A model generated the notes under the pieces. The model saw only the letters and a program-made list of their open reading frames with translations. It did no database searches and was not told the DNA's origin. Below, piece by piece: positions 35,970 through 48,878 of a stretch of DNA of 64,000 nucleotides. The DNA comes from Flavobacterium piscisymbiosum (GTDB taxonomy: Bacteria; Bacteroidota; Bacteroidia; Flavobacteriales; Flavobacteriaceae), in the NCBI RefSeq assembly GCF_020905295.1, contig NZ_JAJJMM010000001.1, forward strand, positions 3,038,001 to 3,102,000, read 5' to 3'. Made by a program: the position numbers and the translations under genes. Position 1 is the stretch's first letter; the number at the start of each line of letters is the position of its first letter.

Positions 35970-36133
35970 TTTTTTTTTTTTTTTTTTTTGCCACAGATTA
36001 AATGATTAAAATGATTTTTTAATCTGTGTATATTTTTTTGCCACGAATTCCACGAATTTTCACGAATTAAATGGATGCTGATTTTTGGCCTTTTCGCAGC
36101 TAAAAAAATCATTTTAATCATTTAATCTGTGGC
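35970..36133. repeat. T20 tract and long inverted repeat
   Basis: A 20-base T homopolymer (35970-35989) abuts GCCACAGATTAAATGATTAA (35990 on), whose reverse complement recurs at 36103-36133, giving a roughly 30-bp stem. Between the arms are CCACGAATT words. The 35919-36286 spacer holds this, a further CGTGAAAATTCGTG stretch near 36170, and the start of the esterase gene. Confidence 0.85.
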
Positions 36134-36286
36134 TTTTTTTTTTCGCAACAAATTATTCATAATCCAATTCGTGAAAATTCGTGCAATTAGTGGCAACCTT
36201 TCATTATCGAAAAACCAGTCGGATTTTTCATATAATTTACGCGGAAAAAACTATATTTACAATCCCAAAAAAGAAAAAATATAACT

Positions 36287-44915: not shown

Positions 44916-45761
44916 ATGAAAAAAGTAATTTTAAGCATCTCAGCGATGCTGTTTGTAGGGGCTGCAGCTATTGCGCAGGGAAACACTTCATCAGTGAATC
45001 AGGTAGGAAACTCTGACCAGGGTCTTGTTACTCAAAATGGTTCAAATAACGGATCTCTTGTTGATCAATTAGGAGATAACAACAAATCTGAAGTTTTTCA
45101 GGGAATTCAACCAGGATTGTATGCAGCAAAAGACAACAAAGCTGATGTGAAACAAAATGGTAATGGTAATGGGGCTTTTATTTCTCAAAGCAACCATGAT
45201 AACGAAGCTTATCAAACACAAAAAGGGAATAGCAACAGAGCTACAATCTGGCAAGATCAAATTGTAAACGCACCAAGTTCAACAGGTGGATTTGACAAAG
45301 CCTGGCAAACACAAACAGGAGACAGTAATACTGCTACTGTAGATCAGGGTACAACAGGTAATGAGAAACCAACAGGTGCTCCTTTTACTGCTGCTCAAAT
45401 CGGACATGCTAATGGTGTAACTGTTCCGGTTGGTCCTCATAATAACAATAAAGCTTGGCAAACACAAAAAGGTGATAACAACGTAGCATATGCAAGTCAA
45501 GGAGGTCAAAGAAACGAGTCTACACAAACTCAAACTTCTCCAAGCGGTACTTCTGCAGCGAACAAAAACACTTCAAACCACTATCAATATGGTGATGATA
45601 ACAAAGCTACATCTGTACAAAACGGTACTAAGTTAACTGAAGATACTTTGCAAATTGGTAACTTAAACAAAGCGACTGTGACTCAAACCGGAGCATCTCA
45701 TGCTAGTATTGCATTCTCAAAAGGAAACTCAAATACAATTGTAGTTACTCAGACTAACTAA
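44916..45761 (+). CDS. csgA: Curlin-repeat amyloid subunit, CsgA-like
   Basis: 281 residues with a signal peptide (KKVILSISAMLFVGAAAIAQ). The mature part is built of degenerate curlin repeats with the pattern Q-x-G-x2-N-x-A/S: VNQVGNSDQGL, DQLGDNNKSEV, KQNGNGNGAFIS, QTQKGNSNRATIWQ, QTQTGDSNTATV, QTQKGDNNVAYASQ, QYGDDNKATSVQ. These form the stacked beta-turns of curli amyloid fibres on the cell surface. It is the first gene of the csg operon. The terminator after it probably makes it the most abundant transcript. Confidence 0.92.
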   Translation: MKKVILSISAMLFVGAAAIAQGNTSSVNQVGNSDQGLVTQNGSNNGSLVDQLGDNNKSEVFQGIQPGLYAAKDNKADVKQNGNGNGAFISQSNHDNEAYQTQKGNSNRATIWQDQIVNAPSSTGGFDKAWQTQTGDSNTATVDQGTTGNEKPTGAPFTAAQIGHANGVTVPVGPHNNNKAWQTQKGDNNVAYASQGGQRNESTQTQTSPSGTSAANKNTSNHYQYGDDNKATSVQNGTKLTEDTLQIGNLNKATVTQTGASHASIAFSKGNSNTIVVTQTN

Positions 45762-45775
45762 TAGCATAAAATATA

Positions 45776-45814
45776 AATGAGATAGTCATAGAACGTGACT
45801 ATCTCATTTTTTTA
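45776..45814 (+). terminator. Intra-operon terminator after csgA
   Basis: AAATGAGATAGTCA - TAGAACG - TGACTATCTCATTT, a perfect 14-bp stem followed by T7. It lies between csgA and the next csg gene, with no clear new promoter before 45831. Confidence 0.85.
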
Positions 45815-45830
45815 ATCTAAATCAATAAAG

Positions 45831-46352
45831 ATGAAAACTTTCATTTTAAATATTGTGATCCTTTTAGTTTTTTCTCCCGTATTATATGCGCAGGAAAAAG
45901 AGGATAACTCAGATTTTAAAAATTATAGCTCCTCTGTTTTTAATTCAAAACAAGTGGCTTTTAGTGTAGTTTCTTCAATGGATAAAAAAGCTCAAAATGA
46001 TTTAAATCAAAAAATCCAATCGGGTATTAATATTCAGCAAATTGGGGATTTGAATAAAGTAATAGCAAATTTAAAATCGAATGAAATCAAGGTTGCTATA
46101 AATCAAAACGGAGATAGTAATCAATTGTTTTTAGATAAAAAAGCAAAATCAATTACTCAAAATTTTGTACAGCAAGGAGATAACAATAAAATTTCTGATT
46201 TTACATTGAATACCAATTATAATGTAAATATGGAAATGATCCAAAAAGGAGACAATCAAAACATTCAAAGTATTGGAACCAATTCACTGTCAAAAAATAT
46301 GAAAATTACCCAGACAGGAAATGGCGCTTCAGTAATTCTTATTAATAAATAA
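45831..46352 (+). CDS. csgB: Second curlin-repeat protein, CsgB-like nucleator
   Basis: 173 residues with a signal peptide (TFILNIVILLVFSPVLYAQ). Repeats are sparser than in the upstream subunit: NIQQIGDLNKVIANL, AINQNGDSNQLFL, FVQQGDNNKISDF, MIQKGDNQNIQSI, ITQTGNGASVILI. The position right after csgA, the shorter length and the hydrophobic, lysine-bearing repeats support a CsgB role: nucleating fibres at the outer membrane. The symbol is by analogy. Confidence 0.82.
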   Translation: MKTFILNIVILLVFSPVLYAQEKEDNSDFKNYSSSVFNSKQVAFSVVSSMDKKAQNDLNQKIQSGINIQQIGDLNKVIANLKSNEIKVAINQNGDSNQLFLDKKAKSITQNFVQQGDNNKISDFTLNTNYNVNMEMIQKGDNQNIQSIGTNSLSKNMKITQTGNGASVILINK

Positions 46353-46360
46353 ATTTAAAC

Positions 46361-47094
46361 ATGCGTTTTTTATATCGACATATCACATTCGTATTTCTGG
46401 TTTTTACTGCCATAGTATATGGTCAGGTCCCCCAAGACAAAATAAAAGCAAAACTGGAAATTGAAAAAGTAGAGGGTAATGTAAAAATTACGGGTACAGC
46501 TGAAAATCTTACTGATGTCATCAGAGGTGCTGCCTATAGAATGTCTGTTATAAAAAATAATAATAAAAGTAATAATCAGTCTAATAATGACCAGGTTGGT
46601 GTTTTTACCTTACAGCCAAACGAAAAGCAAAAATTATCTACATCTCAGATTAATCTGTCTGAGGATGATGAGGTAGTCGTTTTATTATTGTTTTATGATG
46701 AAGACAAGCAAATAATAGCGAAGGATCGTGTGGTTTTGGGTGAAGAAAAAAAAAAGATGTAGAAGTAATTGTATTGCCTGTTGACGGATTTGTGTTAAGA
46801 GGAATTATTACAGACGATACTAAAACCAAAATGGGAAAAGATTTTTACGACAGGTATTATTACAAATACAATGATATTGGAATCAACGCTGAAAAAATAG
46901 TCACAATAGGTGAAGAATATAGTTTTGCAAGAAATACATCCATAACCATAAGTATCGACAACGAAGTTATTTATGAGTTTCTGGCAAGGCCGGATGATGA
47001 ATTTTTGGATGCAGTTGCAGAAGAATCTGTAAATGCCACCTTCACTTACCTGAAAGAAAAAGAAAAAGAGCGCAAATATTTCACTCAGTATTAA
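46361..47094 (+). CDS. csgE: CsgH-like plus CsgE curli assembly protein, split by a frameshift at an A10 tract
   Basis: The first frame (46361-46762, 133 residues) has a signal peptide (YRHITFVFLVFTAIVYGQ) and a beta-sandwich domain of CsgH/CsgC type (KLEIEKVEGNVKITGTAENL). It hits TAG at 46760-46762, just after A10 at 46746-46755. The other frame then runs through DVEVIVLPVDGFVLRGIITD to a CsgE domain (KMGKDFYDRYYY, FARPDDEFLDAV) ending at 47094. That frame has a TGA at 46741-46743 and only a TTG as a possible start, with no signal peptide. One added A (or two lost) joins both halves into about 245 residues, the expected fused flavobacterial form. CsgE gates the CsgG secretion channel. Confidence 0.82.
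46746..46755 (+). repeat. A10 homopolymer at the CsgH/CsgE junction
   Basis: Ten A between GAAG and GATG. The zero frame reads on to TAG within 7 bases; the shifted frame enters the CsgE domain. Confidence 0.95.
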
Positions 47095-47110
47095 TTTTAT
47101 TATTAGCGAC

Positions 47111-47515
47111 ATGAAATTTATAATCACCCTGGCAGTATTCCTGCTTATTTCTCCGTTTATAAATGCTCAGGCATTAGTTTATAAACCAGTCAATCCGGCT
47201 TTTGGAGGAGATACCTTTAACTATCAATGGCTTTTGAGTAGTGCCGAAGCTCAGAATAAGCAAAAAGATAAAACAGCCGAAACAAAAACACAAACTGATT
47301 TAGAGCGATTTAAAGCCAATTTAAATTCGCAATTATTGAGTCAGATTTCAAGTACACTCTACAAGCAACAATTTGGTACTGATGGCATAAAAGAAGGTTC
47401 TTATACTTTCGGGAGCTATTCAGTTGATGTTTACCCATCTGCAGACGGGCTTACCCTAAATATTTTAGACACCAATACCGGCGAACAAACTCAAGTAATT
47501 ATCCCAAATCACTAA
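47111..47515 (+). CDS. csgF: Curli assembly protein CsgF
   Basis: 134 residues. Signal peptide (KFIITLAVFLLISPFINAQ) then LVYKPVNPAFGGDTFNYQWLLSSAEAQN, the CsgF signature: NPAFGG followed by the helical hairpin. CsgF threads its N-terminus into the CsgG pore and couples secretion to nucleation at the cell surface. It lies between csgE and csgG with 16 bp and 1 bp gaps, as expected for a single operon. Confidence 0.95.
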   Translation: MKFIITLAVFLLISPFINAQALVYKPVNPAFGGDTFNYQWLLSSAEAQNKQKDKTAETKTQTDLERFKANLNSQLLSQISSTLYKQQFGTDGIKEGSYTFGSYSVDVYPSADGLTLNILDTNTGEQTQVIIPNH

Positions 47516-47516
47516 C

Positions 47517-48878
47517 ATGAGATTACATCACTACTTATTTATAGTATCCGGATTACTTTTTTCGGGTTGCGGTGCTTATTATAATCAGCCAACCGGCGTG
47601 CAAAAAGCAGTTTTAGGAGAAGGAACTCCTGCCACTTCATTATTAAAAGATCTGCCAAAACCCAAAGAACAAGTTGTCGTGGGTGTCTATAAATTCAGAG
47701 ACCAGACCGGACAATATAAACCACAGGAAAACGGAAGCAGTTTTAGTACTGCCGTGACCCAGGGCGCCACTTCTATATTGATAAAAGCGCTGGAAGATTC
47801 TAAATGGTTTATACCCATCGAGCGTGAAAATATTGGTAATTTATTGCAGGAACGAAATCTTATTCGGGCAACGCGTCAGGAATATGTGAAAAATGCCAAT
47901 CCAAACGAACCTCAGTTAACCCCTTTATTATATGCAGGGGTTTTATTAGAGGGCGGAATAGTTTCATATGATTCTAATATTATTACCGGAGGTTTCGGGG
48001 CACGATATTTTGGAGCCGGAGCTTCTGTAAAATACCGTCAGGATCGTGTTACGGTTTATTTGAGAATGATTTCAACATCTAACGGAAAAATTTTAAAATC
48101 AGTTTATATCTCTAAAACTATTTTGTCTCAGGCTATTGATGAAAGTTTGTTTCGATATGTAAATTTTAAAAGACTATTAGAAGTTGAAACCGGATACACC
48201 ACAAACGAACCCGTACATATGGCGGTTACCGAAGCCATCGAAAAAGCAGTAGAATCTTTGGTTCTGGAAGGTATAAAAGATAATATCTGGGAAGCAGATG
48301 CACCAAAATTTGAAGTTGATAATCTACTAAAAGCATATGCCGAAGAAACCAAAACGGCTGATGTAACCGCGCTTTACGGAAGAGAATTAGAAAACAGAAG
48401 AAGCAAATTTGCTATCGAAATTTCCGGCGGTGCGACCCTTATGGATGGCGATTATCAAGATCCGCTTTTACGGCCTTTTGGTCGCGGCGCTTTAAAGTAT
48501 TTTATAATTCCAAGCTTTAATATAAGCGCTTCTACAAACGTGGTCAATCTCGCCAACACAAATTTACTCGACGTAGGTTATATCACTTATGATCTTAATC
48601 TCGAATGGATTTTACTCCCCAAAGATCGTTTTACTCCTTATCTCTACGGAGGCGGTGGATATGCAACAAACAGGAAATTCGAGAATGCCTATGGTAAAAT
48701 TCAATACGGTTTAGGACTTGAATATCTGATTTCAGACAAAATTGGAATCAAATTGTTTGGAGAGCAAAACATTAATTTTAGTGATAATGTCGACTATATA
48801 AAAGCAGGAACCCGTGACGATTACTATTATAAATTCGGGTTAGGACTTACTTATTATTTTGGGAAAAAGAAAAAATAA
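47517..48878 (+). CDS. csgG: CsgG curli secretion channel with C-terminal barrel extension
   Basis: 453 residues. Lipoprotein signal (SGLLFSGCGAYYNQ). Residues about 20-265 are CsgG proper (VVVGVYKFRDQTGQYKPQ, ALEDSKWFIPIERENIGNLLQERN, RVTVYLRMISTSNGKIL), which forms the nonameric outer-membrane pore. About 160 extra C-terminal residues look like an outer-membrane beta-barrel (EISGGATLMDGDY, FTPYLYGGGGYATN, YYKFGLGLTYYFG, ending in aromatic residues). The E. coli protein is about 277 residues and lacks this part. The start is 1 bp after csgF. Confidence 0.93.
   Translation: MRLHHYLFIVSGLLFSGCGAYYNQPTGVQKAVLGEGTPATSLLKDLPKPKEQVVVGVYKFRDQTGQYKPQENGSSFSTAVTQGATSILIKALEDSKWFIPIERENIGNLLQERNLIRATRQEYVKNANPNEPQLTPLLYAGVLLEGGIVSYDSNIITGGFGARYFGAGASVKYRQDRVTVYLRMISTSNGKILKSVYISKTILSQAIDESLFRYVNFKRLLEVETGYTTNEPVHMAVTEAIEKAVESLVLEGIKDNIWEADAPKFEVDNLLKAYAEETKTADVTALYGRELENRRSKFAIEISGGATLMDGDYQDPLLRPFGRGALKYFIIPSFNISASTNVVNLANTNLLDVGYITYDLNLEWILLPKDRFTPYLYGGGGYATNRKFENAYGKIQYGLGLEYLISDKIGIKLFGEQNINFSDNVDYIKAGTRDDYYYKFGLGLTYYFGKKKK

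Follow-up and report, generated by a model that had tools for sequence, protein, structure and literature searches.

Why is a gene of the curli secretion system broken into two reading frames at a run of ten adenines? The gene lies in a 64,000-nucleotide stretch of the Flavobacterium piscisymbiosum genome, hereafter the window, of which positions 44916–48878 are a curli operon made up of a curlin gene, a gene for a small protein, a split csgE gene (46361–47094) and the genes for CsgF and CsgG (Table 1). The product of the small gene is perhaps a minor subunit, judging from its position and composition. Comparison with related genomes shows that dozens of Flavobacterium species carry csgE split at exactly A10, and slippage at this tract very probably makes two products from it, a free amyloid chaperone and a longer fusion of the chaperone with CsgE.

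The frame break is confirmed by the reading frames themselves. In the upstream frame the tract reads GAA AAA AAA AAG and is followed by ATG and TAG, so that the upstream ORF, 133 codons long, terminates one codon past the A10G run. The CsgE frame lies one base back (−1) relative to this ORF. As a sequence-only reading of the locus had noted, it offers no ATG 5′ of the CsgE domain (only TTG and GTG are present), contains no signal peptide and is closed by a TGA just upstream of the tract. The only signal-like segment is the hydrophobic start of the upstream ORF, as that reading had also stated and as we judged by eye. Its further expectation, that a restored frame would encode a single protein of about 245 residues, agrees with the 21 in-frame relatives examined, each of which encodes one protein of 240–249 aa with one signal-like start.

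Table 1. Features of the curli operon and of the frame break in csgE (positions are those of the window)
Feature	Position	Strand	Evidence or remark
Curlin-repeat protein (CsgA/B-like subunit)	44916..45761	+	PF07012, 7 stretches, 69 bits
Small protein adjoining curlin gene	45831..46352	+	ORF; no Pfam family above cut-off
Zero-frame ORF, CsgH/CsgC-like beta-sandwich with signal-like segment, ending EEKKKM-stop	46361..46762	+	Predicted short product
TGA closing the CsgE frame 5′ of the tract	46741..46743	+	Sequence
A10 tract, candidate slippage site	46746..46755	+	Length common to 51/51 distinct split orthologs
A_AAA_AAG heptamer in zero-frame phase, inside the tract	46750..46756	+	Possible −1 ribosomal shift site
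Zero-frame stop TAG	46760..46762	+	Sequence
CsgE frame	46756..47094	+	Reaches the signal-like segment only via a one-base shift
CsgE domain	46795..47076	+	PF10627, 56.4 bits, residues 14–107
CsgF	47111..47515	+	PF10614, 138 bits
CsgG secretion channel	47517..48878	+	PF03783, 224 bits

The identity of the downstream half is clear from its Pfam score, which exceeds the cut-off of 25 bits, and from a profile match to the CsgE structure 2na4 (E = 0.0012). The upstream protein is related to the NCBIfam family CsgH (NF041112; E = 1.3e-8), with 34.7 bits lying just under the cut-off of 35, and it also matches NCBIfam CsgC (E = 6e-4) and, below the cut-off of 25, Pfam CsgC (14.3 bits). An AlphaFold model of this protein (22 sequences, pLDDT 83.9) had the CsgH solution structure 2n59 as its first match in the PDB (E = 1e-5) and E. 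coli CsgC (2xsk) as its seventh, at a TM score of 0.80 to the target, with other Ig-like folds scoring close behind; the sequence profile found CsgC in the PDB only at E = 0.43. The model thus points to an Ig-like beta-sandwich of the CsgC/CsgH fold. The disulphide cysteine pattern of CsgC and CsgH, as defined in PMC4838910 (partial text), is absent from the upstream protein, which contains no cysteine at all, and 11 of the 51 distinct split-locus N-domains contain any cysteine. A model of a natural in-frame ortholog, L143 (21-sequence alignment, pLDDT 77.8), has two folded parts and a low-confidence joining stretch (residues 129–146) that includes the tract-encoded lysines; with a pTM of 0.42 the relative placement of the two domains in it is meaningless. 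Its fold matches have CsgH first and CsgC third, and CsgE 2na4 is not among the 50 matches listed. Since the low-confidence stretch sits at the location of the tract, the short product is predicted to be a complete chaperone domain.

Homopolymers are error-prone in sequencing, and the sequence-only reading had named a sequencing or assembly error as the main alternative. A total of 72 among the 299 genomes of our genus sample encode CsgE. Classed by domain and frame, 37 of these make one in-frame CsgH–CsgE protein and 35 are split, all 35 at exactly A10 followed by G and in one phase, with G (31 loci) or C (four loci) before the tract and the zero-frame stop 0–10 codons past it. A scan of named genomes, limited to the best 80 of 107 loci, gave 46 split loci and 34 fused ones (22 of them from Chryseobacterium), the split set including F. 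johnsoniae CI04, F. piscis, F. aquidurense, F. succinicans and F. frigoris; the CsgE of the window is 98% identical to that of F. piscis and others. Both scans were pooled with 29 wider-family loci, giving 181, and identical CsgE stretches were dropped, leaving 146, namely 94 fused, 51 split and one cut by a contig end. That last gene, L090 (G529), seemed at first sight to be split outside the genus and was rejected for this reason, and L136 was counted as split by its domain frames, which the open-frame length criterion alone misses. Throughout the 51 distinct split loci the longest linker A run is 10, the next base is G, and the codons AAA AAA AAG place the heptamer A_AAA_AAG in the zero-frame phase; an A7 or interrupted run occurs in none of them. 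The tract is unchanged at identities to the window down to 42% in CsgE (20 sequences) and 35% in the N-domain (22 sequences). Such conservation, in which separate assemblies agree on both length and phase at 51 distinct loci, leads us to reject a sequencing or assembly error, the probability of which we consider negligible.

The same constancy bears on slipped-strand phase variation, also raised by the sequence-only reading, in which changes in tract length would switch curli export on and off. The split class has no spread of lengths between species, and this makes the proposal weak; its only hint comes from three species with an in-frame A11 (F. turcicum, F. poyangense and F. ichthyis). We regard such a switch as very improbable.

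Purifying selection acts on CsgE as strongly in the split genes as it does in fused orthologs. The median dN/dS of CsgE is 0.057 in split loci (445 pairs) and 0.057 in fused Flavobacterium loci (51 pairs), and that of the N-domain is 0.079 (334 pairs) and 0.103 (49 pairs), respectively, for pairs within Flavobacterium of 75–97% identity. A comparison giving a CsgE dN/dS of 0.57 in fused versus 0.05 in split loci was discarded, its pairs having been picked by dS and its fused set including distant genera. The selection on CsgE indicates that the part of the gene behind the break is used. In principle, ribosomes could reinitiate past the zero-frame stop and make CsgE as a separate protein. The distance is short, with 0–4 codons between the tract codons and the stop in 50 of the 51 split orthologs (10 codons in the other one) and with the CsgE domain beginning 6–11 codons past the tract. 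Databases record the split gene as two short proteins, and 41 database relatives of the CsgE half, from a search limited to proteins of at most 196 aa, are 87–120 aa long, several being named CsgE. However, none of the 51 split loci encodes 10 consecutive hydrophobic or small residues ahead of the CsgE domain, and only 4/51 have an ATG there. A separate CsgE with its own signal peptide, which by the sequence-only reading would have spoken against a fusion, was thus not found among the split relatives. Given how secretion works, a CsgE without a signal-like run could not reach the periplasm, where CsgE would therefore be expected only within the fusion; the short database proteins, having no signal peptide, would presumably not arrive there either. 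We consider reinitiation to be extremely unlikely.

If the two halves are joined, the tract is the place where this would happen, and its sequence is strictly kept. Fitch counts over the split loci, made on the gene tree described below, gave no third-base change in the four tract codons, compared with 9–19 in every one of the 14 codons ahead of them. The position directly 3′ of the tract was equally constant, although the second and third bases of its codon changed 9 and 16 times. Three changes (G or C) were counted at the base that opens the first tract codon and precedes the run. Codons ending in G make up 21% (GAG), 40% (CAG) and 16% (AAG) of their kind nearby, and with this usage interruptions of the tract would be allowed. 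Runs of nine or more are a recognised class of transcriptional slippage site (PMC1088944, partial text), and at csgE an A run of that class stands at the frame transition in 51/51 split loci; test cassettes with 11, 9 and 7 A's shift 63, 40 and 10%, respectively (PMC3711429, partial text). In addition, the frame break is conserved across species and the frame downstream of it is under selection. Slippage at the tract, as proposed by the sequence-only reading, is the best explanation of these findings, and we think it probable that csgE is a programmed slippage gene, in which slippage of RNA polymerase gives both a free CsgH-like chaperone and a CsgH–CsgE fusion.

In E. coli, dnaX undergoes programmed −1 ribosomal frameshifting at A_AAA_AAG. 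Ribosomes shifting at the same heptamer in csgE could make the fusion from a uniform mRNA; the heptamer is in the right phase in every split locus and the G that completes it never changes. Furthermore, the split csgE genes share a single direction of shift (the tract-bearing fusions encoded in the templated frame have A11, A10GG or A9), and one direction among orthologs is a sign of ribosomal shifting, differing directions being one of transcriptional slippage (PMC3711429, partial text). Both the single direction and the invariant G count against transcriptional slippage, although the G may have another cause, as only A and G keep the zero-frame lysine, and of these two A would make the run longer. 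On the other side, a heptamer needs seven bases only, yet among split loci the A's outside it are as invariant as those inside, and shorter or broken runs do not occur. A stimulatory structure is expected a few bases downstream of a slippery heptamer, but no conserved pair was found there in 15 split sequences, and 12 single folds differ. The mean folding z downstream of the tract in split loci is −1.06 to −1.57. In windows anchored on CsgE, split loci fold more strongly than fused Flavobacterium loci closest to the tract, with a mean z of −1.25 vs −0.63 in the first window, and of the three windows further on two show little difference (split/fused −1.30/−1.13, −1.36/−0.88 and −1.07/−1.05). 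From these values we claim no stimulator, although one may be present. An upstream SD-like motif, which can stimulate −1 frameshifting and is not obligatory, occurs in only 1/51 split loci. Slippage at csgE is hence, in our view, more likely transcriptional than ribosomal. Frameshifting on a uniform mRNA is an unlikely source of the fusion, and ribosomal shifting may contribute alongside transcriptional slippage.

The textbook frameshift gene dnaX is itself split in this genome at A10G, in the same phase as csgE (L248:1502–1511; G000:C1:5433750–5433761). Among the other dnaX loci in the genus, the 30 with the best scores include 28 with the same break at A10; of these 28, L277 has its downstream part cut by a contig end and L285 has C as the next base. 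Two loci have A11: L268 is in frame, and L267 is broken in the opposite direction, which by the rule of PMC3711429 (partial text) is a mark of transcriptional slippage. Among the dnaX matches listed, six above-cut-off open frames are 566–614 aa long and the others 358–401 aa. Production of tau and gamma by A-tract slippage has been described for the A9 of Thermus thermophilus and for dnaX with A10 (PMC3711429 and PMC1088944, partial texts), and the A10 found here lies in the same phase. The systems differ in that dnaX encodes a clamp loader, whereas the short form of csgE would be a separate amyloid-chaperone domain. With both genes in one genome, dnaX provides a built-in positive control for the measurement of slippage.

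In the mechanism that we propose, RNA polymerase would slip on A10 and produce a mixed population of mRNAs. Templated A10 mRNAs and those of most other lengths would yield the CsgH-like amyloid chaperone in free, secreted form. At all 51 split loci the third frame is closed within 10 codons, so that slips not leading to the fusion would again give the free domain. Messages with one extra A or two fewer would encode a CsgH–CsgE fusion able to act at the CsgG channel. With a single promoter and a single start, the tract would in this way fix the proportion of chaperone that is free and that is bound to the gate. In E. coli, CsgC prevents the nucleation of CsgA and holds it ready for CsgE–CsgG (PMC4838910, partial text). 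On balance, we lean towards a wider proposal, in which one gene divides its output between a free periplasmic amyloid inhibitor and the same inhibitor tethered to the CsgE gate of CsgG, at a ratio written in the DNA. In this proposal, in-frame fusions gave rise to the arrangement, probably on two occasions, in a genus that was already using the same tract in dnaX.

The starting point of that history can be placed by looking beyond the genus. CsgE was found in 86 of 397 genomes of a wider-family sample, this one included, and the other 85 have open frames of at least 238 aa, except for one of 152 aa that is cut by a contig end; DNA examined at 29 of these loci was fused at 28 and at a contig edge in one. 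An internal TAA was seen in one genome of this sample (G539). In a class-wide sample, 12 of 395 genomes have CsgE, with open frames of 177–257 aa apart from this genome. The long in-frame open frames of both samples indicate that the in-frame fusion is probably ancestral.

We built a tree from 126 of the 145 distinct classed loci, without 19 loci from Chryseobacterium and without the one at a contig edge; it describes csg genes and not species, and some of its deep supports are low (0.15, 0.25 and 0.42). A main clade of 58 loci (support 1.0) has a linker A10 or A11 in 57 and is split in 50. Its in-frame members carry A10 with different following bases (L052, L027, L033 and L131), A11 (L029, L123 and L143) or no tract (L051); the presence of the three A11 loci and of tract-free L051 in this clade counts against a programmed break. 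Far from the main clade, L055 (G231:C62) is split with A10G and adjoins a fused, tract-free relative (support 1.0), which makes it probably a second origin of the A10 split. Parsimony requires six changes between fused and split over the 126 tips. A separate lineage (L030, L034, L154, L155, L156 and L167) has an in-frame A9 at the same linker; L030 and L155, the two members tested, meet a stop within 3 codons in the other frames. The fused gene of Chryseobacterium shigense (L168) has an in-frame A10 with C as its next base, while no run exceeds 8 in the remaining 21 loci of that genus.

A long A tract could also have lost its frame without any gain, by a chance one-base change that was rescued by unavoidable slippage, leaving two products of no benefit. 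In-frame relatives already have tracts of A9–A11 at this position, and fused lineages are common. However, A10 would be expected to mutate to A11 often, yet the long-tract clade is mostly split (50/58) with only three loci at A11, and the apparent second origin in L055 is a further point against such an accident. We judge a tolerated indel to be quite improbable; as it overlaps on mechanism with both transcriptional slippage and ribosomal shifting, the probabilities of the three do not sum to one. A point against programmed slippage is that 37 of the 72 CsgE-bearing genomes of the genus sample are fused in frame, 31 of them with no linker A run of 9 or more, from which it follows that two products are not generally needed.

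Programmed A-tract slippage is already known, and what csgE would add is a new type of system, curli, with strong conservation. A close likeness is tssM1 of the type VI secretion system of Citrobacter rodentium. There, too, an A run (A11) is closely followed by a premature stop, and slippage extends the protein by its C-terminal part; the short and the long variant are both required, as is the ratio between them (PMC4256274, partial text). The machine and the protein are different ones, two species were reported there compared with dozens for csgE, and tssM1 is backed by RNA and functional evidence, whereas the case for csgE is a comparative one. Transcriptional slippage also operates in the secretion-system genes spa13, mxiE, spa33 and mxiA of the Shigella type III system (PMC4256274, and for spa13 and mxiE also PMC5009743; partial texts), a machine unrelated to curli. 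The CsgC/CsgH chaperones and CsgE are described in PMC4838910 and PMC3521004 (partial texts), and the domains found here match them by profile and fold. The chaperone and CsgE are encoded by separate genes in E. coli, by a fused gene in the relatives examined, and by a gene split by the tract here. Bacteroidetes are stated to lack csgC (PMC3521004, partial text), and CsgH sub-families have been noted in them (PMC4838910, partial text). Our searches of open-licence papers listed none that describes slippage or frameshifting for a curli gene; curli and Csg are absent from the available part of PMC3711429, as are curli and CsgE from that of PMC5009743. If true, programmed slippage at csgE would, by these searches, be the first for curli (type VIII) secretion, and it makes testable whether free and gate-bound chaperone must stand in a set ratio for amyloid to be exported.

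Tracts of this length are not confined to csgE and dnaX. Searches for exact A10 and A11 tracts, with a long open frame defined as 60 or more codons either side of the tract, gave 83 A10 tracts in this genome; among the 82 besides csgE, three lie inside a long open frame and one, dnaX, at a frame transition. The 14 A11 tracts include one in-frame gene and no frame transition. One in-frame A10 (L193:1502–1511, a minus-strand tract; G000:C1:1298123–1298134) lies in an open frame of 403 residues, between what by eye is a glycosyltransferase-like part and a following membrane-like part, and slippage there would release the first part. Long T runs occur in the window itself, at 35970–35989 (T20) and 36134–36143 (T10), in an intergenic stretch with repeated motifs that is, judged by eye, apparently an intergenic repeat element.
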